Assembly (NCBI RefSeq): GCF_008843145.1
Contig: NZ_CP030265.1
Location: 773,001-837,000, forward strand
DNA length: 64,000 nucleotides
Direction of reading: 5' to 3'
Source of the DNA: Skermanella pratensis
GTDB taxonomy: Bacteria > Pseudomonadota > Alphaproteobacteria > Azospirillales > Azospirillaceae
In this document: positions 3,605 through 61,070 of the stretch, in pieces
Position numbering within the stretch: position 1 is the stretch's first letter
Layout of the letters: each line of letters begins with the position of its first letter
Notes under the pieces: model-generated
The model's input: only the letters and a program-made list of their open reading frames with translations
What the model was told of the DNA's origin: nothing
Database searches by the model: none
Position numbers and translations under genes: made by a program

Positions 3605-4720
<1,116 letters not shown>

Positions 4721-4791
4721 CGGAGGTAATCTGGATGGAGGCTCGGGGCACGAACCACCATCCGTTTGAATAGAGCAACGCCGCAAACCAC

Positions 4792-6381
<1,590 letters not shown>

Positions 6382-6530
6382 GGGAACTGGATCCTTCTGT
6401 GCTTACCGGCGCTCCCGGCCCCTTTGCCGGAGGCCGGTGTGCGGGCAGCGCCGAAATCAGTGATGCGACGGTGACGGATGGCGCGAGCGCCATGATCCCC
6501 CTGAACACCTGTCAATGACGACGGCGGCGC

Positions 6531-6721
6531 TCAGGGGCGCATAAGTCGCAGAAGGAGAGCCCCATGCAGCCCACGGGCAGACGGCAGCGCTTCCGGCAGG
6601 GGCAGGACGGTGCCCGTGCTGGCGATGGCAAGGGCGCGCGCACCGATCCGGTCCCCGCGGGGGGCCTTCATGATGTCGGACGTGCGATCCTGCGTAATCA
6701 CCAGTTTCTACCTTCGGTCAA
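6531..6721 (-). promoter_or_regulatory. Candidate promoter and leader peptide upstream of leuA
   Basis: On the minus strand a TTGACC -35-like box (6716-6721) is followed 16-17 bases later by a weak -10 (6694-6699). An ATG at 6671 then opens a 46-codon frame ending at 6531 whose last residues are GALLLRLMRP: the Leu codons CTC CTT CTG, then CTT after one Arg, just before the stop. Hairpin-forming sequence (atggcgcgagcgccat at 6478-6493, and a G+C-rich stem near 6407-6438) lies between this frame and leuA. That is the layout of a leucine attenuator, but the ribosome site is poor and the match could be chance. Confidence 0.33.
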
Positions 6722-7169
6722 TCGGTCCGCACCGCCGGGGTGCCGGAGCCGGCTGCTGGTGCCAAGGTGGCGCCGTTATGGTTAAATTTGCGTTAAAGCG
6801 TCTGACCGGCTATCCTGACCGTCAGCGCCCAGGCCCGGTATGTCTAAAGCAAGGGCAGGGTGTCCCGCAACCGTTTTCAGACTGAAGCCCCGGATGCCGC
6901 GGGACAATTCGGGGGCCGTCCCGAGGCGCGGGAACGGGGTCGTGACATGGAAATAGCTGCAAACCGCCAGAATATGACGTTGGGGGTAGCGTTTTGTTTC
7001 TTAAAGATAGGTCGTGTTGCGGGGCCGGGGTCCCATATCCTACAAATAACGACGACGCTCCATCGATCCGGCGCCGGAGAGTCACGCAGGATGTAAACCG
7101 CTGATATCGCAAAAGATCACGCGATCTACACCGCATTCTCACGGAGCAGGGATTTTTTCGCGGGTCGTT
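6722..7169. other. Intergenic stretch without a recognised gene
   Basis: This part of the gap between leuA and the sigma-factor gene holds only short frames with no family resemblance. It becomes locally A+T-richer after 6960. The only functional signals I can support in the whole gap are the leuA leader candidate to the left and the ECF-type promoter at 7170. Confidence 0.5.
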
Positions 7170-7193
7170 GGAACAAAGCGGCGTCCCAAGGTT
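7170..7193 (+). promoter_or_regulatory. EcfG-type promoter of the sigma-factor gene
   Basis: GGAAC at 7170-7174, a 16-base spacer and GTT at 7191-7193 match the known alphaproteobacterial general-stress consensus GGAAC-N16/17-(C)GTT. It lies about 200 bases before an ECF sigma gene, suggesting autoregulation. Only the consensus match supports it; start-site data are lacking. Confidence 0.6.
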
Positions 7194-7393
7194 TTACTGC
7201 CCAGGAGTTCGTGCGTCTGACGCGCGGTGCGTGTCCAGTCGCGGAACCGGGCGGTGGTTCATCCAAACAGGCCGGCGTCGCCGATCCGAGGCGGTGGCCG
7301 GCTGATCAGGAAGTGGAAAAATGGTGTTGCGCTCAACCATCCCATCCTTAGTCAACAGCGCGAAGACGAATATGTCCGGGGAGGCTGTCACAC

Positions 7394-8035
7394 ATGTCTG
7401 AGAACACGCTTGACCGGTTGGAACAGGAAATTCCCGCTCTGCGCCGTTTCGCGCGGGCTCTGGTCGGCCATCCCGAACGGGCCGACGACCTTGTCCAGGA
7501 CACCCTCGAGCGGGCCTTGACCCGTCTGGACAGCTATACGCCGGGCACCAACATGCGCGCCTGGCTCTTCACCATCCTTCGCAACGCCCATATCAACGAA
7601 CTGCGCCGCGCCCGCACCACCGCGACCCCGGACGAGACGCTGGAAGCGCTGAGCCCGCCGGCCCCGGCCGCCCAGGAGCACGGCCTGGCCGTCCGCGACC
7701 TGGAGCGGGCCCTGGCCCGGCTGACACCGGAAATGCGCGAGGTGCTTCTGCTGATCGGCCTCGAAGGCATGAGCTACGAGGAAGCGGCCGACGTGCTGGG
7801 CGCCAAGGTCGGCACCGTCAAGTCGCGTCTCTGCCGTGGCCGCGAGGCGCTCCGTCGGCTGATGGACGGCGAAGTGGGAGAGGACGGCGTGACCCGGTTG
7901 CCCGGTCGCCCGCTGACCCCCGCCACCAGCCGCGAGATGGCCGCCGTCGTCCTGGCCTTCCAGCGCTCGGCCGCCGCCGCCGCGCGGACCGTGCACATGG
8001 GCATGGACATCGAGGAGCGCCGCACCGGTACCTGA
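7394..8035 (+). CDS. ECF RNA polymerase sigma factor, EcfG/RpoE-like
   Basis: A 213-residue group 4 sigma factor. Region 2 (about residues 12-75, with RADDLVQDTLERAL) binds the -10 element and core polymerase; region 4 (about 105-155, with MSYEEAADVLGAKVGTVKSRL) is the helix-turn-helix for the -35 element. About 50 extra residues follow region 4. An EcfG-type promoter sits upstream, which fits a general-stress sigma factor, but neither NepR nor PhyR is adjacent as they usually are for the main EcfG. It may therefore be a secondary paralogue. A strong hairpin ends the unit at 8065-8098. Confidence 0.85.
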   Translation: MSENTLDRLEQEIPALRRFARALVGHPERADDLVQDTLERALTRLDSYTPGTNMRAWLFTILRNAHINELRRARTTATPDETLEALSPPAPAAQEHGLAVRDLERALARLTPEMREVLLLIGLEGMSYEEAADVLGAKVGTVKSRLCRGREALRRLMDGEVGEDGVTRLPGRPLTPATSREMAAVVLAFQRSAAAAARTVHMGMDIEERRTGT

Positions 8036-8064
8036 CCCGGCATCGTCCGCAAACCCGAAATTGA

Positions 8065-8098
8065 AAGAGGCCGTCGTTCTTAGGAGCGACGGCCTCTT
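8065..8098 (+). terminator. Transcription terminator hairpin after the sigma gene
   Basis: Perfect 12-base arms (8065-8076 and 8087-8098) enclose a ten-base loop, about 30 bases past the sigma-factor stop. No T-run follows on this strand, so strength as an intrinsic terminator is uncertain. Confidence 0.7.
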
Positions 8099-8308
8099 GA
8101 CATACTTTGCTTCAATTTATCTTATTGCTATTTAAGTGATAGATCAGTTTTATGAACTCGGATGAGAGAAGCTTCTGAGCATATAAATTCGCAGTATATA
8201 AGCCTGATGACCGGCGGCTTCTATCGCTGGTTTGAACGTATCAGAGTATCGCTTGTCGAACTACCGGCGCGAGTCGCGGCCTGACGGCGGCGCTGGCGTA
8301 GCGAATGA

Positions 8309-8905
8309 CTACGACGAACTCCATGTGCTGCCAATGGCTGCCGGATCATCGACCCCATCCGGCAGGTCGGCGAAGGCACGCGTGTCCGCAGGGCGCCGGT
8401 CCGCCTTCGACGGATGCGTCATGTCGTGGATGATGGCGTCCGCCGATGGGATAACGCCGACCCGCTCCAGGCCCCGTAGCAGTCCAACGGTCGAAAGCAG
8501 GTGAAGGTTCGGCGGCTTGTTGAAGACGCGGATCCCGGCGTCCTCGAACAGGATGGCCACGGGTTCGCCAACGCTGACATACTTGCGCAGGCCATCGTCC
8601 GATGACATGAAGTCAACGATGGCAAGTTCGCCGGCGTTCTTCTTGAACTTCTTCCCCGTGCGCCGTTTTTCGCGCTCCTGTTCGCCAATCTCAGTGTTCT
8701 CGATGATGAATGGTGGCTGGTTGCTGTCGATGAACGCCTTCACGGCCCGGTCCTTGGGATAGGATAGGTCGCTGGTCAACTCGTCGTAGACTGCATCGAC
8801 CACGATCAATCGCATGTCGAGAGCCAGTAGCAGATCCAGCCGGTCGGCCACCCAGAGACTGTTGAACGGCCCCGCATCGGGAATGATGACGGTGCATCGC
8901 TTCAA
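8309..8905 (-). CDS. PIN-domain toxin, VapC-like ribonuclease
   Basis: A 198-residue protein whose N-terminus (TVIIPDAGPFNSLW) and conserved acidic positions (VVDAVYDEL, GELAIVDFM, LFEDAGIRVF) fit a PIN-fold RNase that chelates metal. It would cleave RNA when freed from its antitoxin. The start must lie before the first aspartate; the only suitable codon is TTG at 8905, which overlaps the antitoxin stop as TTGA, so translation is likely coupled. It is longer than classic VapC (about 130 aa) and has an extra tail. No catalytic residue is obviously lost. Confidence 0.75.
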   Translation of the reverse strand: MKRCTVIIPDAGPFNSLWVADRLDLLLALDMRLIVVDAVYDELTSDLSYPKDRAVKAFIDSNQPPFIIENTEIGEQEREKRRTGKKFKKNAGELAIVDFMSSDDGLRKYVSVGEPVAILFEDAGIRVFNKPPNLHLLSTVGLLRGLERVGVIPSADAIIHDMTHPSKADRRPADTRAFADLPDGVDDPAAIGSTWSSS

Positions 8906-9234
8906 GACTGCTTCCAGAGTTTGGCGAAAGTCACAGCCTGGTTTTCGACGTCATGGGGTGGCGGCAGCGGCATCGGCAGGTCGGCATCCCCAAGCGCGAC
9001 GAGCAATTCGGCGTAGTCGCGCAGCCCGAGAAGTCGAATGGCCTCGTTCCTAGCCAAGCGTCCCTGCGAATACGCCAGCAACGGATCGTCCGTGACGGGG
9101 GCGGTGCCATCCGAGGTCACCGCCTCCAAGTGCTCTCGGACAATTGCCGTCATCGTCGTCCCATGCGCGGCGGCATACGATTTAGCCCGAGCCACAAGAT
9201 CGTCTGGTAGGTTGAGCGTCGTGTTCCTCAGCAT
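8902..9234 (-). CDS. Antitoxin of the PIN-toxin pair
   Basis: A 110-residue protein beginning MLRNTTLNLPDDLVARAKSY, a ribbon-helix-helix-like DNA-binding start common in VapB/type II antitoxins. The C-terminal half, ending LWKQS, should wrap the toxin. The ATG at 9234 is preceded by a good ribosome site (GGGAGGT, five to six bases away); an upstream in-frame ATG at 9291 would run through the operator palindrome and is rejected. The toxin gene follows with a four-base overlap. Confidence 0.75.
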   Translation of the reverse strand: MLRNTTLNLPDDLVARAKSYAAAHGTTMTAIVREHLEAVTSDGTAPVTDDPLLAYSQGRLARNEAIRLLGLRDYAELLVALGDADLPMPLPPPHDVENQAVTFAKLWKQS

Positions 9235-9250
9235 ATCGCACCTCCCTACG

Positions 9251-9266
9251 TCACATATATATGTGA
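9251..9266. promoter_or_regulatory. Palindromic operator of the toxin-antitoxin operon
   Basis: TCACATATATATGTGA is a perfect 16-base palindrome immediately upstream of the antitoxin ribosome site. A palindrome here is where antitoxin or antitoxin-toxin complexes usually bind to repress their own operon. Binding itself is inferred. Confidence 0.6.
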
Positions 9267-9357
9267 AAGCCGCTTCCGGGATCAATGCCATGCCGGAAGC
9301 CAGACCAACGCAAGGTGCGAACAGAGCCCTTTATTCGACGTTCGCCGGCCGGAGCCT

Positions 9358-9384
9358 GGGAACCGGGGTCCGACCCCGGTTCCC
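9358..9384 (-). terminator. Terminator hairpin downstream of ilvC
   Basis: Perfect 12-base arms (GGGAACCGGGGT and complement) with a three-base loop, 30 bases past the ilvC stop. It also lies upstream of the toxin-antitoxin operator, so it insulates the two units. No strong T-run on the minus strand. Confidence 0.65.
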
Positions 9385-9413
9385 CTCGTCGGCACCGACG
9401 CAGGGCGCCCCGA

Positions 9414-11031
<1,618 letters not shown>

Positions 11032-11136
11032 GGGACGGGCTCCAGCAGGGATGGCAGTGTGGCGGTTGGTATCGGCGCATGACGACCGGCCCCGCTCCGT
11101 CGCGGGGCCTGTCCTTCTACCGCGGAAAGCGGCGCC

Positions 11137-12912
<1,776 letters not shown>

Positions 12913-53549: not shown

Positions 53550-53624
53550 TGGGGCGTCGCCAAGCGGTAAGGCAGCGGTTTTTGGTACCGCCATACGCAG
53601 GTTCGAATCCTGCCGCCCCAACCA
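53550..53624 (+). tRNA. tRNA-Gln (anticodon UUG)
   Basis: A complete cloverleaf: acceptor TGGGGCG/CGCCCCA, D arm GCC-AAGCGGTAA-GGC, anticodon stem GCGGT/ACCGC with loop TTTTGGT (anticodon TTG at 53582-53584), T arm GCAGG-TTCGAAT-CCTGC, discriminator A and encoded CCA (53622-53624). A promoter-like TTGCGG-N17-TATGGT lies at 53504-53532. Its 3' end faces an accessory region, but I found no repeated copy of the tRNA end that would mark an attachment site. Confidence 0.97.
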
Positions 53625-53829
53625 GCTCATTTAAGGCTAAGAAGCAAAAGCTTATCTGAGGTTTTGGCAAGCGGGTGGTACACAATGGCGACTGCCTCGA
53701 GCTGGCACTCCCTTTCGGGGCTAATTTGAGAATGGGTGTGTACCAGTTGCCGCGCTGAACGGGCACCCGCAGCGCTGCTTGAACGTGAACCGCGTTTTAC
53801 GGGCATTGTCGGCATCAATAAAGTAGGAG

Positions 53830-54248
53830 ATGATGTCGCTCATCAGTTTCCTCTCCTCTGCGGATGTTTTGATGCCGGCTCTTGTGTTCATTGAGGTTGC
53901 GGTGCCCCCCGATACTAGCACCACTGAGCGAGGTCGTGTTCTCGAGAGGTTCGCTCGGAAGTTCTTGGTAACACAGAATTTTGAGGTTACGGAAGAACTC
54001 CGGATCACCGGAATGGAGGTCGATCTGCTTGCGACAGAACGCACAACTGGTGAGAGAGTTCTTGTCGAATGCAAAGCGCATCGCGCGAATATCGCTGCAG
54101 AGGTTCTCTTCAAAATCCTCGGGCAAGTCATGGGGAAGAGCTTCTCCGCTGGCTGGCTGATCTCAACGTATGCATTAAGCAAGGATGCAAAGGGCTTCTG
54201 TGACGAATGGAATGCTAAGTCACCCGAAGAACGGCGCCGGTTGCAGAC
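53830..54248 (+). pseudogene. 5' part of a PD-(D/E)XK nuclease-STAND NTPase gene, cut by IS66
   Basis: The first 137 codons of a larger gene. The nuclease core is visible as GMEVDLLA (Asp65) followed by VLVECKAH (Glu80, Lys82), the D...ExK pattern of Mrr/restriction-type endonucleases. The frame then runs ERRRLQT and enters the inserted IS66 element, ending 30 codons later. The continuation (LQTYDPGRLIRRLVDAG) starts at 55971 in exactly the matching frame. Start is either of two adjacent ATGs (53830 or 53833) with AGGAG right before; an in-frame ATG at 53872 is a further option. Confidence 0.82.
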
Positions 54249-55970
54249 GGACTTGGTCAGTTTCGTCGGCGGATAGCGGCCACGGCGGTTTGCTGTGGAC
54301 TACGCTGAGGCGTTTTGGCGGATGAGATCGGGGAGCCAGGGCACGCGGTCGGCGTCCGGGATATTTAGCCGAGCCCCGAGGTAGTCCCAGAACGAGATGG
54401 CGAGCTTGGAGCAGGTTTTCAGTAAACTGAGGAAGGTGTCCCGCGCCTGCTTGCCGGCCGCGGAGCGGGTCTCGCCGGAGATCCTGCGTTTGGTGACGAA
54501 GCTGCGGACGTCGTTCTCCGAGCCGTTGGTGTGCAGCGGGATATCTGGCCGGTCGAGGACAAGCAGCAGCTCGTCCTTGTTGGCAAGGGTCCGGGCGACG
54601 GCCTCATCGAGTTCGGCAAAGCCGGTGACCCGGGTGAAGATCCGATCGAAGCGCCGCCTCAACGCCGTTCGGCGGATGGCGTTCGGGTCGTCCTTGTAGA
54701 GTTTGAGATCGGCGTAGAACCACCAGACCAGCTGGCGCTGCAGCGCGACCTGGCGCTGCTGCTCGTTGGTCACGCAGACGATCCGGCGGAGATGGCGCTC
54801 GGCGTGGATCCAGCACAAGGCGTGCTGGAAAACGTCGAACTGACCGGCATCATCGGAGATGATCACGGTGTCGGTCAGCAGGCCGCGGGCGACGATGGCT
54901 CCGACCATGGCCGCCTCGGTGACCCGCCGACGATGACCGGCGCCGAAGCCGAAGCTGTCCAGCTGGGCCTGCCACGCCGCATCGTCGGCAAAGCTCCGGG
55001 GTCCGGCGGCGAGCAGAGCGGCGACGATGCTTTCCGGCACGCCGTGTTCGACCAGGTAGGCCAGCGCCGTGGCATTGATCACGTAGTCGGGATGGCCGGC
55101 ACGGAGTAGGTCGAGGAAGTTCAGTCGGCTCTTCGACGGCCGGGTAGCGAACCAGGCGAAGCGGTCATTGCCAATGTGCGTCGTGTACTCGTTGGCCCCA
55201 GCGTGGCGGGCGCCGGTATCATCGACCGTCACCCAGGCGGCAGTTGCCAGCCCGGCCTCCAGGATGGCGTCCTTCTCGGCATGGAAAGCATCCTTGTTGG
55301 CCGTCAGGAGGGTGATAATCTGACCCTTGGAAATGCGCACGCCCAGGCCTCTCAGCTGGGCGCGCAGGCGCTCCACCGTCACCTGCCCCTGGACGTGCTG
55401 CATCAGCACGAAGCGCACGATCCCGGGGCCAAAGTGGCCGCGCACCTCGGGCGGCAGCGGTGCGATGATCTCCTGGCCGTCCGGTGTCACCCAGCGCTCG
55501 CGGCGGAAGCGGATGACCTGCGGCGCCAGGATCAGATCCTGCACGGTGAAGGGCTCGAAGCCGCGCCGGCGCGAGCCCGCCGGGGCCTCGATGACAAGGG
55601 TGCGCTCCGTGGTCACCGGCGGGGTGCGCCGGCCACTCTGCCGGTTGCGCCGCTGCCGGCGCGCCTCCTTGGTCCTGGCCCGCCTGTCCGGCTCTGTCGC
55701 CTTGTCCATGCCGCCCGGTGCCAGCTTCGGTTTCTTCGGTAGATCCTTCAGCTGGGCGTTCTCTGCCCGCAGCTGCTGGTTCTCCTCTTCCAATGTCGAT
55801 ACGCGAACCAGCAGCTCGACCACCAGCTTCTTCAGCTCGGCGAGAGACAGGGCGTCCAAGTCTGGAAGCGGCGCTACGGACATGGCTTAGACAACCATGT
55901 CCACCCTCATCATGGGAAGCCCTCACATCACCTCGACACACCCGCCGACCGGGGAAACTGACCAAGTCCG
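54248..55970 (-). mobile_element. IS66-family insertion sequence (single-gene type)
   Basis: A 1.72-kb element with inverted ends CGGACTTGGTCAGTTTC (left, from 54248) and its complement at the right end (to 55970). TTGCAGAC occurs on both sides (54241-54248 and 55971-55978), a 7- to 8-base target duplication depending on whether one C is counted in the inverted repeat. Only the large transposase is present, as in the ISBst12-like subgroup that lacks tnpA and tnpB. The perfect ends and duplication indicate a recent insertion. Confidence 0.92.
54300..55883 (-). CDS. IS66-family transposase
   Basis: 527 residues. A Leu/Glu-rich coiled-coil N-terminus (ELLVRVSTLEEENQQLRAENA, partial) and a basic region precede the DDE catalytic core: WVTVDDTGARH, VIISDDAGQFD with CWIHAERHLRR, and LHTNGSENDVRSF. 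The C-terminal RISGETRSAAGKQARDTF is the conserved IS66 end. All catalytic acids are present and the frame is intact, so the element may be active. Confidence 0.95.
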   Translation of the reverse strand: MSVAPLPDLDALSLAELKKLVVELLVRVSTLEEENQQLRAENAQLKDLPKKPKLAPGGMDKATEPDRRARTKEARRQRRNRQSGRRTPPVTTERTLVIEAPAGSRRRGFEPFTVQDLILAPQVIRFRRERWVTPDGQEIIAPLPPEVRGHFGPGIVRFVLMQHVQGQVTVERLRAQLRGLGVRISKGQIITLLTANKDAFHAEKDAILEAGLATAAWVTVDDTGARHAGANEYTTHIGNDRFAWFATRPSKSRLNFLDLLRAGHPDYVINATALAYLVEHGVPESIVAALLAAGPRSFADDAAWQAQLDSFGFGAGHRRRVTEAAMVGAIVARGLLTDTVIISDDAGQFDVFQHALCWIHAERHLRRIVCVTNEQQRQVALQRQLVWWFYADLKLYKDDPNAIRRTALRRRFDRIFTRVTGFAELDEAVARTLANKDELLLVLDRPDIPLHTNGSENDVRSFVTKRRISGETRSAAGKQARDTFLSLLKTCSKLAISFWDYLGARLNIPDADRVPWLPDLIRQNASA

Positions 55971-58340
55971 TTGCAGACCTACGATCCTGGCCGACTCATT
56001 CGGCGGCTTGTCGACGCGGGGTTGATCCGTTCACCGGAGATACTCGAGCGGCCCGTAGGGCTCCGAATTGCGGAAGAAGCATATCTACTACTAACTCCAT
56101 CGGGAGAGTATTGGGCCCTTCCTGTTTCCGATGCCAGCACGGGTGTGCGACAGTCTGCGCTGCTGTTCGATGCTGTTACTGGCGCCAGGGTGCATGATGA
56201 AGGAACATTAGACACTGTCGCCCAAACAGATACATCGCTGGCGGATCTAACGTGGCTCTCAGGTCGAACTGAGAAACTCAACGCTGATTCAGATCGCCTG
56301 CGGGAAGAGCTTCAGAGCATCGTTCGAGTTCCGGTTGCTGACCACTGGGCAGACTACCGGCCAGCAAGACCTGAAGACTTTGTAGGGCGCGATAAGATTC
56401 TGTCAGGCGTCTTTTCGTTGCTGGAGCGCGTACGAGGCCGAGAAACGCGCACGCGTCTGCTGGCGATCAAAGCTCCATCTGGTTGGGGTAAGAGTTCTTG
56501 CGTATTGAAGATCGCGGCACGTGGCGAGCGGCCACGAGACCAAAAGCGGTATTTCATCTTCGCGGTTGATTGTCGTGCCGCAGCTTCACGGCGCTTCGGC
56601 GAACTTGCACTATTCCGCACGTTTGAAGAGGCGATCCGGCATAAATTTGTTTCGAACCCTGGCGAGTTTACGTTCGGTGGTGCCGACAATCCATTTGCTA
56701 CCGAAGCAATGCGAACAATAGCTGCCGAACTGAAGCAGGAAGGTAAGGTCGTCTGTCTCCTTTTTGATCAGTTTGAGGAGCTACTCTACAAGGATGAACT
56801 CTCTACAGTTTTTGATGAAATCAAAACATTGTGTAACGCCGTTGATGAAGCGCAAGAAAACGTAGTGATAGGCTTTTCATGGAAGACTGACGGAGCCATT
56901 CCGCCAGAGCACAAGGCGTATCATTTATGGCATTTGCTCGCAGATCGACGGCTTGAATTCGAGTTGACTCCATTCTCAGTTCATGAAGTCTCGACAGCCC
57001 TGAACAGGTTTGGCCAAGAACTAGGTCAACCTTTGGTGCCACAGCTGCGACGGTTATTGCAAGACCACTGTCAAGGGTATCCTTGGTTGCTGAAGAAACT
57101 TTGCATACACATCCTGGCACAAGCAAGGGCAGGGCTTGACCAGAATGATGTCTTGGTTCGGTCTCTAAGTATTCAGGAGTTGTTCGAGAAGGATGTTGAG
57201 CTCCTTAGTTCTGCTCAGCTTGCTTGTCTGAAAGCAACTGCTAATGATGCTCCGGCAGAATTTTTTAAAATTGTTAATACTTTTGGGGAAGAGGTAGTCT
57301 CAAGTCTCATAGATAGAAGACTTTTGGTAAAGACCGGCCCAAGATTGAACATATATTGGGATATATTCCGTGATTATATTTTGACTGGCAAGGTCCCGCA
57401 AATCCCGGTCACTTACGTTCCCCAAGCCAGTTACCATCGGTATGCCCAGGCGCTATCATTTCTTCTCAATAAGGACGAGGTGACTTATGGTGCGCTTGCT
57501 GCTGTTTTGGGCCTCAGTGAGGGGGCGACTGATAACATAGTCCGGGATTTGGTCAGCATCGGCAATGCAGAAGCCAACCGCAAAGCTGAGGTGGTGAAGG
57601 CCTTGCAAGAGGATGAGACGACAGCAGCGCGGGTTGTACACGAGTTTTGCCGATCACATGTCGCGTACCGAAGGATAGTGTCGGAGGTTGGAGTAGGCGG
57701 CACATTTTCGGAGGACGGATTTAGGCACATGCTTCGGGACAACCCGGGCATTGCTGCTGCCACTGAACATACCTGGGAAGTATACGCTCAGCGCATGCTT
57801 AGGTGGTTCATGGGCGTTGGCCTGATTCAGCCTGACGGAGCGACGTATCTGTTGCGGGAGGGCTCGCAGAAAGGGCTACGCTCGCAGCATCTCGACAGTG
57901 GAAACGAGCGTCGCGGCGAGCACCTTTTTCTTGGCGAGTCGCCTCCGGCAAAGGTGGTCGCCGCGCTCATTGAAGCCCGGGAGCGACCGACTTTGTCTCA
58001 TTCAGAGCTTTCAACACGTCACGGCCGAAACGCAGTGAGGGCTCTAAGGAACCTTCGTCTGTACGGGCCTTCTGGCATTTCCAACTTAGTAAATTCTACT
58101 GACGCAGTCACGCTCGTCCAAGGTGCCGCTGCAGCGGGTCGCGCTGTAGATCTTGCACGGCAATTGCTCGCCGACCAACCGAGGATTACGGGAGAAGCTA
58201 TTGGGGAGGCAATTTCAGAAAAGTTGGGGCGAGATTGGTCGCGAGGTTCTATGAGGCGCTGCGGTAACGCGTTGCGCCAATGGGCGGCATGGATAAACGC
58301 TAGTAATGGTATGGTAACGGGAAACGATCCCAATGTCTAG
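55971..58340 (+). pseudogene. 3' part of the nuclease-STAND NTPase gene, cut by IS66
   Basis: 789 codons continuing the gene interrupted at 54248; rejoining the parts gives about 926 residues. A linker domain of ~130 residues (LTPSGEYWALPVSDA) leads to a STAND-type NTPase: FVGRDKILSGVFSLLE, Walker A KAPSGWGKSS, Walker B VCLLFDQFEELL. The C-terminal ~400 residues look like winged-helix and helical repeats (YGALAAVLGLSEGATDNIV; HSELSTRHGRNAVRALRNL). Base composition is clearly lower in G+C than the neighbours, indicating transfer. Architecture (nuclease effector, STAND switch, sensor-like tail) resembles anti-phage Avs-type proteins but is shorter. Read alone from the TTG it lacks its nuclease. 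Confidence 0.8.
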
Positions 58341-58406
58341 TGGAGGCGTTGGTCAAATGCGTTTGCAGTGTCAACCGGAAGGATGTTCGACACCGGAGAG
58401 AAGCCT

Positions 58407-58733
58407 ATGATTGAGACGCTCACGATTTCCCGCGCCGAGTACGACGCGCTCACCGAGCGGGTTGCGGACTTGGAAGACATCCTCGCCGCGATGAACGCGC
58501 GCGGCGGTCAGCCGATGCCGCTGGAGTGGGCCGGGCGCATCATCAATGGGGAGAGCGCCGTCCGCGTTTGGCGCGAGTTCCGAGGACTGTCGTTGCGGGC
58601 GCTCGCAGCCAAGTCGGGAGTGAGCGCGGGTTATCTGTCCGAGATCGAGGCGGGCAAGAAGCCTGGGTCGGTGGAGGCTTACAAGGCGCTCGCCGAGGCC
58701 TTGGACACATCCGTCGATTGGCTGGTTCTGTGA
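58407..58733 (+). CDS. XRE-family helix-turn-helix regulator, antitoxin-like
   Basis: 108 residues from the ATG at 58407 (GGAGAG eight bases upstream). The first 30 residues (LTISRAEYDALTERVADLED) resemble the N-terminus of antitoxins paired with RelE-like toxins, and the HTH is VWREFRGLSLRALAAKSG with VSAGYLSEIEAGKKPGSVE. No toxin gene is present on either side, so it is an orphan or a regulator of the neighbouring nuclease-STAND gene, whose stop is 66 bases upstream. Confidence 0.8.
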   Translation: MIETLTISRAEYDALTERVADLEDILAAMNARGGQPMPLEWAGRIINGESAVRVWREFRGLSLRALAAKSGVSAGYLSEIEAGKKPGSVEAYKALAEALDTSVDWLVL

Positions 58734-59397
58734 CCGCAGGGCGGGATGAGCGGCGGCCCGCTCGATAGGGGCGGGGTACAAGGGCGACGGGCTGAGGGAT
58801 GCCGCCTGCGCCGTGGTCTTCAAGGAGAAGGAGAGCCACGGCAAACCATTTCCGGTTCTGAAATGTGTTTCCGGATTTCGGTTCCACGGCAGGATTGAGG
58901 ATTGCAATCCTGAAGATTTGAGGATAAAAAACCTTGCAAGCTCCGTTATCCTTCTCTTCATCCACCGGCGCACGCTCATTGGAGCGGTTTCCGACCAAGT
59001 TGACCAGCTCCGGTCCCTGCGGCCTGCCGTTCCACTCGCCGCGATGCGTTGGGCCACGGCCCAACCTATGGTTTGACGCGAAGCGGCGGTGATGCGGGCC
59101 GTCGAGCGTAGCAACTGTTTTTGTGAGCCGCATCGTTGGGTGTGGATATACAACTTCAAGCAGCATGCATGGTCACGGGAAGACGCCGCCGTCAGCGGTT
59201 TGCCGCGGCGGTTGTCGGACGTGCTCTTGGCCGCCCCCACCTCGGTCCAGCGGGCGGCGGGCGGAGCGGCCATCAAGGACGCTGCGCGCCGCTCCGCGGT
59301 GGCCTTCGGCCCTCCTTGACCGCCGCTCCGCCCGCCGCCCGCTGGACCGAGGTGGGGACGGAGGGATGGTGCCGCCGGTCGAACAAAGGGATGGGGC
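58734..59397. other. Gene-free stretch with large inverted repeat
   Basis: About 660 bases without a supported gene. It holds a small palindrome AGGATTGCAATCCT (58898-58911), one arm of the 26-base inverted pair (59042-59067) and the 45-base hairpin at 59235-59357. Parts may be decayed insertion-sequence DNA. Confidence 0.5.
59235..59357. repeat. 45-bp inverted repeat, very stable hairpin
   Basis: Arms at 59235-59279 and 59313-59357 match at 43 of 45 positions, around a 33-base G+C-rich loop. It lies 41 bases beyond the IS110 transposase stop. It could be the element's structured non-coding end or a terminator protecting it from read-through. Confidence 0.75.
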
Positions 59398-60604
<1,207 letters not shown>

Positions 60605-60715
60605 AGGTTGGGCCGTGGCCCAACGCATCGGCCCGGCTGTCCCGGCCGGATCGACCTGATCGGGCAGCGTTAGTCGCGTGCTGGCGGAGGACTGGGGAAC
60701 ATAAAGTTTCCAGGT

Positions 60716-61070
60716 ATGAATCACGACTTTTGTTGACATCCCCGAGGGGGTGTAGCCATCGCCGACACGGTCGCCCGCGCCGTTTCCGGCAGCTCCAGAC
60801 ATCACGTTAAGGAGTACGCATGACGACTTTTGCTGACATCCCCGTGGGGGCGTAGCCACCGCCGGCACTGTGACCCGGGCATCTGTGGCGGTTCCTGACA
60901 GTCACGCGAAGGAGTACGCATGATGACGTTCGCTGACATTTTTGGGGGTGGGGGGCCACCGCCGGCACCCTATCCCCGGAACGTGCCGGCAACTCCGGAT
61001 GATCAGGGCGAGGCGAACGGATGATCACGTTTGTTGACATGCTCCCGGGGGGTGAGCGGCATGGCGGGCA
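60716..61070. repeat. 100-bp tandem repeats, about 3.5 copies
   Basis: The segment ACGACTTTTG-TGACATCCCC recurs with a period of 100 or 101 bases (TGACAT at about 60734, 60834, 60934 and 61035). The second and third junctions carry AAGGAGTACGCATGA, a ribosome site and start codon, so the units open tiny frames such as MTTFADIPVGA and MMTFADIFGGGG, and the last opens MITFVDMLPGG. The array lies between the IS110 region and the DUF4384 gene. It is not a CRISPR array: there are no short identical repeats with unique spacers. Confidence 0.8.

Follow-up and report, generated by a model that had tools for sequence, protein, structure and literature searches.

Here we describe a gene in a 64,000-nucleotide stretch of the Skermanella pratensis genome (contig NZ_CP030265.1, positions 773,001 to 837,000; referred to as the window) that is split in two by an insertion sequence (IS) of the IS66 family. 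Its intact relatives are widespread and join, in one gene, an N-terminal Mrr-type nuclease, an nSTAND1/ORC-like NTPase switch and a winged-helix array. We consider it probable that this family acts as a STAND-nuclease defence switch, which sometimes provides a second layer to restriction-modification (R-M) or bacteriophage exclusion (BREX) systems; the window copy itself is a recent pseudogene of its family, inactivated by IS66. The interruption had been recognised in an earlier note made from the DNA of the window, to whose reader the strain-variable tRNA slot of the gene, the location of some relatives within R-M/BREX operons and a C-terminal module common with an OLD-like protein were not visible.

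The 5' piece of the gene (53830..54248, + strand) encodes the Mrr-type PD-(D/E)XK nuclease, with a Pfam Mrr_cat match over 53932-54207 (4e-10, 40.3 bits, cut-off 21), and lies in an open reading frame of 148 aa (53830-54276, +) whose last 8 residues are wholly IS-encoded. The 3' piece (55970..58340, +) encodes the linker, the NTPase, a winged helix and the C-terminal array; its open reading frame (55971-58340) comprises 789 aa, and residues 128-302 (56352..56876, +), which hold the Walker A and DQFE motif region, match Pfam nSTAND1 (2e-7, 31.5 bits, cut-off 27.1). Between the two pieces lies an element of 1,721 bp (54249..55969, - strand), the limits of which were set by comparison with three other genomic copies. 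A 527-aa transposase with the Pfam DDE_Tnp_IS66 domain (54300..55883, -), inverted-repeat ends and a target duplication identify it as an IS66-family element. The duplication, GTTGCAGAC, is found at 54240..54248 and 55970..55978 (both +); the earlier note was right about its presence, and its length is 9 bp rather than the 8 bp given there, which is usual for IS66 elements. The flanks of the three other copies, as read directly, carry an exact 9-bp repeat in two cases and a 9-bp repeat with one mismatch in the third. Since these copies are 99.59-99.94% identical to that of the window over 1,718 bp, the insertion into the gene is probably recent. A search of the same genome revealed six copies of the same kind, judged by equal score, plus further IS66 relatives.

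Without the IS, the gene reads through to 926 aa when counted from ATG 53830, the length put forward previously; however, because relatives mostly begin near the equivalent of ATG 53872, 14 codons downstream, this second start and a protein of 912 aa are more likely. In an alignment with 54 homologues, the junction is gap-free in the window row (EERRRLQTYDPGRL, compared with EERRKLRIYPPERL in the intact homologue L009), and the split pieces match intact relatives end to end, which agrees with the original observation that the frame is resumed beyond a 1.72-kb IS66. Chance or artefact can be ruled out, as the pieces, the IS ends, the target duplication and the homologues are all consistent. As also noticed before, the gene is poorer in G+C than its surroundings: the two pieces contain 52.9% and 52.8%, the IS 66.2% and the window 67.4%, and third-position G+C reaches 59% and 51% in the pieces compared with 92% in the adjoining transporter gene.

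When genome contigs were scanned with the 789-aa piece, 64 homologous loci emerged; this number is a lower bound, since the search patterns were derived from one sequence. The homologues span Pseudomonadota, Bacillota, Bacteroidota, Actinomycetota, Campylobacterota, Verrucomicrobiota, Acidobacteriota, Chloroflexota, archaea and others. The frame is near-complete in 54 of the 64, and in every one of these 54 the nuclease is fused to it in the same frame, as expected from the fusion proposed in the earlier note. The remaining ten, being cut or broken, were excluded from the main alignment: in five the first piece retains the nuclease (L022, L024, L035, L052, L053), four are cut by the contig start (L029, L064, L068, L072), and the decayed copy L026 lacks the nuclease part. 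Pfam (E<=0.01) detected Mrr_cat in 51 and nSTAND1 in all of 52 homologues scanned, confirming the pairing of a nuclease with a STAND NTPase; residues E49, D51, E66 and K68 of the nuclease, G295, G297, K298 and S299 of Walker A, and D390, Q391 and E393 of the DQFE motif are invariant in the same 52. Mean pairwise identity amounts to 30.9% in the nuclease, 36.5% in the NTPase, 20.4% in the linker and 19.1% in the C-terminal array. Hence, the array is, together with the linker, the fastest-evolving part of the protein, which fits the expectation for a sensor. In two further members a mobile element interrupts the gene: an ISKra4-like element parts nuclease and NTPase in L103 (on an Allocoleopsis plasmid, cyanobacterial; 4437-8674), similarly to the break in the window gene, and an IS110-like element splits L035 (Sphingobium; 7620-12059) at about residue 465. 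Such repeated breakage may reflect the cost of the gene. A phage origin was rejected, as a search of 50,697 phage records gave no match; two family loci lie in viral contigs. In a plasmid collection, matches H38-H41 are homologues without a listed gene in Acinetobacter baumannii (about 29-30% identity over 98% of the query).

The AlphaFold2 model of the intact homologue L009 (52-row alignment; mean pLDDT 88.3) shows, in order, the nuclease, a beta-rich linker, the NTPase, a winged helix and the winged-helix array, the domain names being read from secondary structure together with Pfam, PDB and Foldseek matches. The last 310 residues of the window's own gene (57408..58337, +), modelled with 53 homologues, yielded the same array (pLDDT 90.5). 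Thus, the C-terminal about 300 residues are, according to these models, an array of winged helices and not tetratricopeptide repeats (TPRs), and the winged-helix/helical tail described earlier should be corrected to a winged-helix array. Foldseek with the whole protein returned STAND/ORC-type NTPases, namely NLRP9, ORC/Cdc6 and Apaf-1, among the 50 of 1,584 matches listed, whereas for the tail there was no match at E<=0.001 and the tandem winged-helix matches were weak (SelB, RPC62, a Wadjet subunit and FokI; best E 1.1e-3). Among the 50 matches listed, a viral fold library gave hits of a generic kind, to NTPases and restriction nucleases, and the 38 PDB matches found by sequence at E<=1 (best 1.3e-4) include none that spans the whole protein. 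The last about 150 residues recur in a congener protein of a different kind, L074 (1222-3258, -), with a profile match of 1.2e-15 in a single-sequence search and 9.2e-13 in a genome search. We call L074 OLD-like because of its weak AAA_21/AAA_15 ATPase matches and a TOPRIM-like stretch seen by eye. Moreover, in L053 (9439-11067, +) the tail module occupies a separate second, overlapping frame with three helicase-associated (HA) domains behind it, an arrangement that would represent either a split gene or a frameshift.

The genomic surroundings of 56 loci were considered, the near-duplicates L017 and L062 being excluded from the neighbour count, which gave 190 frames of 90 aa or more (two per side at most) in 52 loci; 147 of them were scanned as a set, with the 25 commonest families listed, and 43 proteins singly. 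A same-strand gene lies within 60 bp in 15 of the 52 loci, and this tightly linked neighbour is an R-M or BREX gene in nine of the 15 (9/52 overall). In L044 and L070 the family gene stands between an NgoPII endonuclease upstream and a C5 methylase downstream, with 4-bp overlaps (L044 is a Sulfurospirillum locus). It is accompanied by an N6/N4 methylase and DpnII in L020, by an Eco57I-like methylase and a BsuBI/PstI endonuclease in L016, by Eco57I in L042, and by an N6/N4 methylase and ResIII in L021, which is type III according to the PADLOC MTase_III tally and gene order, and likewise in L048, where the upstream gene was typed by clustering with L021. L025 and L027 contain a PglX-like methylase followed by a helicase and PglZ, the upstream gene of L027 being typed by clustering with L025; we take these operons to be BREX-3-like, and PADLOC recognised PglX/PglXI and PglZ in two members each of the neighbour set. 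The other tightly linked neighbours are a glutaminyl-tRNA synthetase gene in L014 and genes without a Pfam match in L033, L063, L067, L069 and, upstream, L036. The PF01555 methylase has 145 matches in 198.6 Mb (45 genomes searched), which were assigned to loci by coordinates, four being confirmed by Pfam; at least six of 45 loci (L020, L021, L025, L027, L047, L048) have one nearby compared with 0.73 expected (Poisson P 1.2e-4, or 0.007 with two related pairs counted once). On the family tree, the R-M/BREX label (9/54 rows) requires five changes, all forced by starred branches, and an earlier label that included GmrSD (L033) required six.

An all-against-all blastp of the neighbours revealed no conserved partner gene, the largest cluster comprising eight loci. 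Integrases or recombinases stand beside some loci (L075, L100; Phage_integrase in 3 of the 147 neighbours), and a KAP NTPase accompanies the integrase near L075. In L036 a prokaryotic E2 family D gene (10393-11103, +) is located about 53 bp downstream of the family member, possibly as part of a ubiquitin-like defence operon, and PADLOC mad2 (4/147) and mad3 (2/147) matches suggest possible MADS loci near the family.

We postulate that the resting protein is kept in a nucleotide-bound off state until its fast-evolving winged-helix array binds an invader-made cue, which could be DNA or a protein complex bound to it. Nucleotide exchange and oligomerisation of the NTPase would follow, and the clustered nucleases would cut DNA, so that the invader or the infected cell is stopped. 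In members situated in R-M or BREX operons, the switch would provide a second layer should those systems fail. The nuclease and NTPase domains with their invariant catalytic residues, the low identity of the array, the predicted fold, the R-M/BREX linkage of some members with its five label changes on the tree, the strain-variable slot and the module common with the OLD-like L074 speak for such a switch; for the family as a whole we infer oligomerisation, DNA cleavage, a trigger of this type and a role in phage defence. Several observations weigh against this defence switch. The possible ligands of winged helices include protein, RNA and DNA, and no cue is indicated; the Pfam family NA-iREase1, which comprises inactive nucleases, matches 26 of the 52 members, though their catalytic residues are kept; and RuvB and clamp loaders also appear among the 50 of 1,584 Foldseek matches listed. 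As regards the second layer, an R-M/BREX gene in tight linkage was not seen in 43 of the 52 loci, related pairs inflate the R-M/BREX counts, and on the tree the label forms clusters (0/500 shuffles as low), with gains and losses indistinguishable. Furthermore, the scanned neighbours of the nearest relatives L009 (Hydrogenophaga), L010 (Alsobacter), L014 and L075 include no recognised R-M gene, and the window copy stands alone, without an R-M or BREX partner.

The operon placements would also suit a guard of restriction that is held quiet by, or monitors, the resident R-M or BREX system and fires upon its disturbance by a phage anti-restriction factor or DNA damage, like PrrC with EcoprrI. The position between the NgoPII-type endonuclease and methylase genes with 4-bp overlaps, the positions behind DpnII, BsuBI/PstI or type III genes and within BREX-3-like operons, the five changes of the label on the tree and the PrrC logic, as outlined in parts of PMC12409349, all speak for such a guard; however, most members examined, including the clade of the window gene, have no R-M partner in tight linkage, and no single partner protein is conserved, so we hold it to be possible but clearly less probable than the defence switch. 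Comparably doubtful is an ATP-dependent restriction enzyme, in which the winged helices read the sequence, structure or modification of DNA, and the invader is cleaved directly by the Mrr nuclease, without killing of the cell. The Mrr-type nuclease, the resemblance of the tail to tandem winged-helix DNA/RNA readers and weakly also to FokI, and the three HA domains behind the module in the split member L053 are consistent with it, but the motor is STAND-like and not a helicase or translocase, and the fold of the tail is weakly matched, with a best E of 1.1e-3.

If the gene were cargo or an addiction module that mainly aids mobile elements in their competition, phage defence would be a side effect; the integrases and recombinases near L075, L100 and a few other loci point in this direction, but the family has no conserved partner gene as a possible antitoxin and its placement in R-M operons better fits defence, which makes this explanation improbable. 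Even more so, and in our opinion very improbable, is a housekeeping regulator of DNA replication or transcription of the ORC/Cdc6 or MalT type. Such a role would explain the weak match of the orc1/cdc6 NCBIfam model in 24 of the 52 homologues, the Foldseek matches to ORC/Cdc6, RuvB and clamp loaders and the winged helices, but not the invariant nuclease site, the patchy occurrence (2/99 genomes match, own included, the other match being the C-terminal module alone), or a gene that is broken in the window strain and whose slot holds other DNA in two congeners. Returning to the defence switch, we would tentatively go a step further and speculate that compact nuclease-STAND guards in unrelated R-M/BREX operons read infection or restriction failure through the winged-helix array on nucleic acid, and that the terminal module is a portable sensor also employed by OLD-like nucleases.

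Among known systems, the nuclease types of Avs/AVAST (e.g., Avs4) resemble the family in that an N-terminal nuclease effector and a STAND NTPase share one chain. Avs proteins possess a long TPR-like C-terminal sensor and recognise phage terminase or portal, whereas the models of the split-gene family show a winged-helix array in this place, and the Avs4 model has 1,579 positions compared with about 910 aa. The families listed for the 52 homologues (25 of 29 from NCBIfam, 25 of 27 from PADLOC) include neither an Avs model nor one matching the whole protein, and Avs4 NF041815 has no match in the S. pratensis genome at E<=0.001. The family seems Avs-like in working, yet fails the Avs sequence tests made here, and the earlier suggestion of a compact family apart from Avs is supported as far as tested. 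The PADLOC phage-defence candidate PDC-S02 overlaps with the family in part: its profile PDLC04815 matches the nuclease part in 17 of the 52 homologues (best 6.5e-8), and in L009 residues 20-138 align with positions 206-320 of the 346-position profile, leaving the NTPase part uncovered.

Excerpts of published work point to further comparable systems. STAND proteins with Mrr_cat effectors are described from P4-satellite hotspots, but with C-terminal repeats instead of a winged-helix tail (PMC9122126). Part of a 2026 BREX survey lists fusions of a PD-(D/E)XK restriction endonuclease (REase) with a CR-ATPase among auxiliary BREX effectors, proposed to be auxiliary restriction factors (PMC12839542); the likeness consists in a REase joined to a related NTPase near BREX genes, and the survey's set may include our family; the split-gene family is found in type II and III R-M operons as well. 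In CR-effectors and their prokaryotic relatives the REase is located at the C-terminus according to the sections of PMC10853773 drawn on here, while it is N-terminal in the split-gene family, which has a winged-helix tail. PrrC with EcoprrI, PARIS and Ronin, as far as portrayed in portions of PMC12409349, provide an extra effector tied to restriction or anti-restriction sensing; the split-gene family differs in its effector, a DNA nuclease fold, and its switch, and its R-M coupling is putative. The NTPase, being above the Pfam nSTAND1 cut-off, resembles the nSTAND1 clade of STAND NTPases (PMC8195603), one of several NTPases in systems built on effector-associated domains according to passages of that study, in which a nuclease-nSTAND1 protein in R-M operons is not mentioned. 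Among the matches listed from open-licence PMC text, no title or abstract deals with the family in R-M operons, though it may be listed in supplements.

In the window, the split gene and its IS occupy a strain-specific slot (53627..58384), delimited by blastn of the window against the congener loci L091 and L092 and bordered by a tRNA-Gln (TTG) gene (53550..53624, +; ARAGORN), which stands next to the same transporter gene also in four congeners. The flanking transporter and DUF4384 proteins of congeners G001 and G002 are 99% and 95% identical, and the DNA of these two congeners aligns with that of the window at 98% as far as 53626 and at 90-91% from 58385 onwards. The slot holds 379 bp of other DNA in G001 and 1,490 bp, including a DUF2335 membrane-protein gene, in G002; in two more distant congeners the match is limited to the transporter and tRNA side. 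Since G001 and G002 hold other DNA between matching flanks, the split gene seems to be cargo specific to this strain, carried in a variable slot. Among 99 genomes searched (own included), the gene was found only in its own, and the match of congener G004, the other of the two matching genomes, is confined to 130 C-terminal residues. With up to three mismatches allowed, the window shows no further copy of the tRNA 3' end, and no integrase was recognised beside the split gene; an island with tRNA attachment sites was rejected on these grounds, and we term the slot variable rather than an integrated element. The helix-turn-helix gene at 58368-58733 was likewise rejected as slot cargo, as two congeners have matching DNA at the same site. 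Further downstream, a 49-nt inverted repeat (59231-59361; 94% complementary, arms 33 nt apart) adjoins an IS110 transposase gene (59398-60483), and in region 60702-61051 a repeat with a length of up to 78 nt occurs three to four times, mostly spaced by 100 nt. At least one copy has, by eye, a short reading frame after a ribosome-site-like AAGGAG; similar repeats are present in congeners.

The intact relatives in bacteria and archaea, several of them within R-M operons, point to an uncharacterised layer of bacterial immunity. Known bacterial STAND immune proteins are mostly described with repeat-type sensors binding phage proteins, and the same nuclease and switch with a winged-helix array would extend the STAND scheme to another type of sensor. 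Type II R-M systems are usually treated as two-gene machines, and the placement beside R-M genes of unrelated specificity suggests that they can carry an NLR-like back-up. The module common with the OLD-like protein opens a direct way to the identification of the cue that is sensed.

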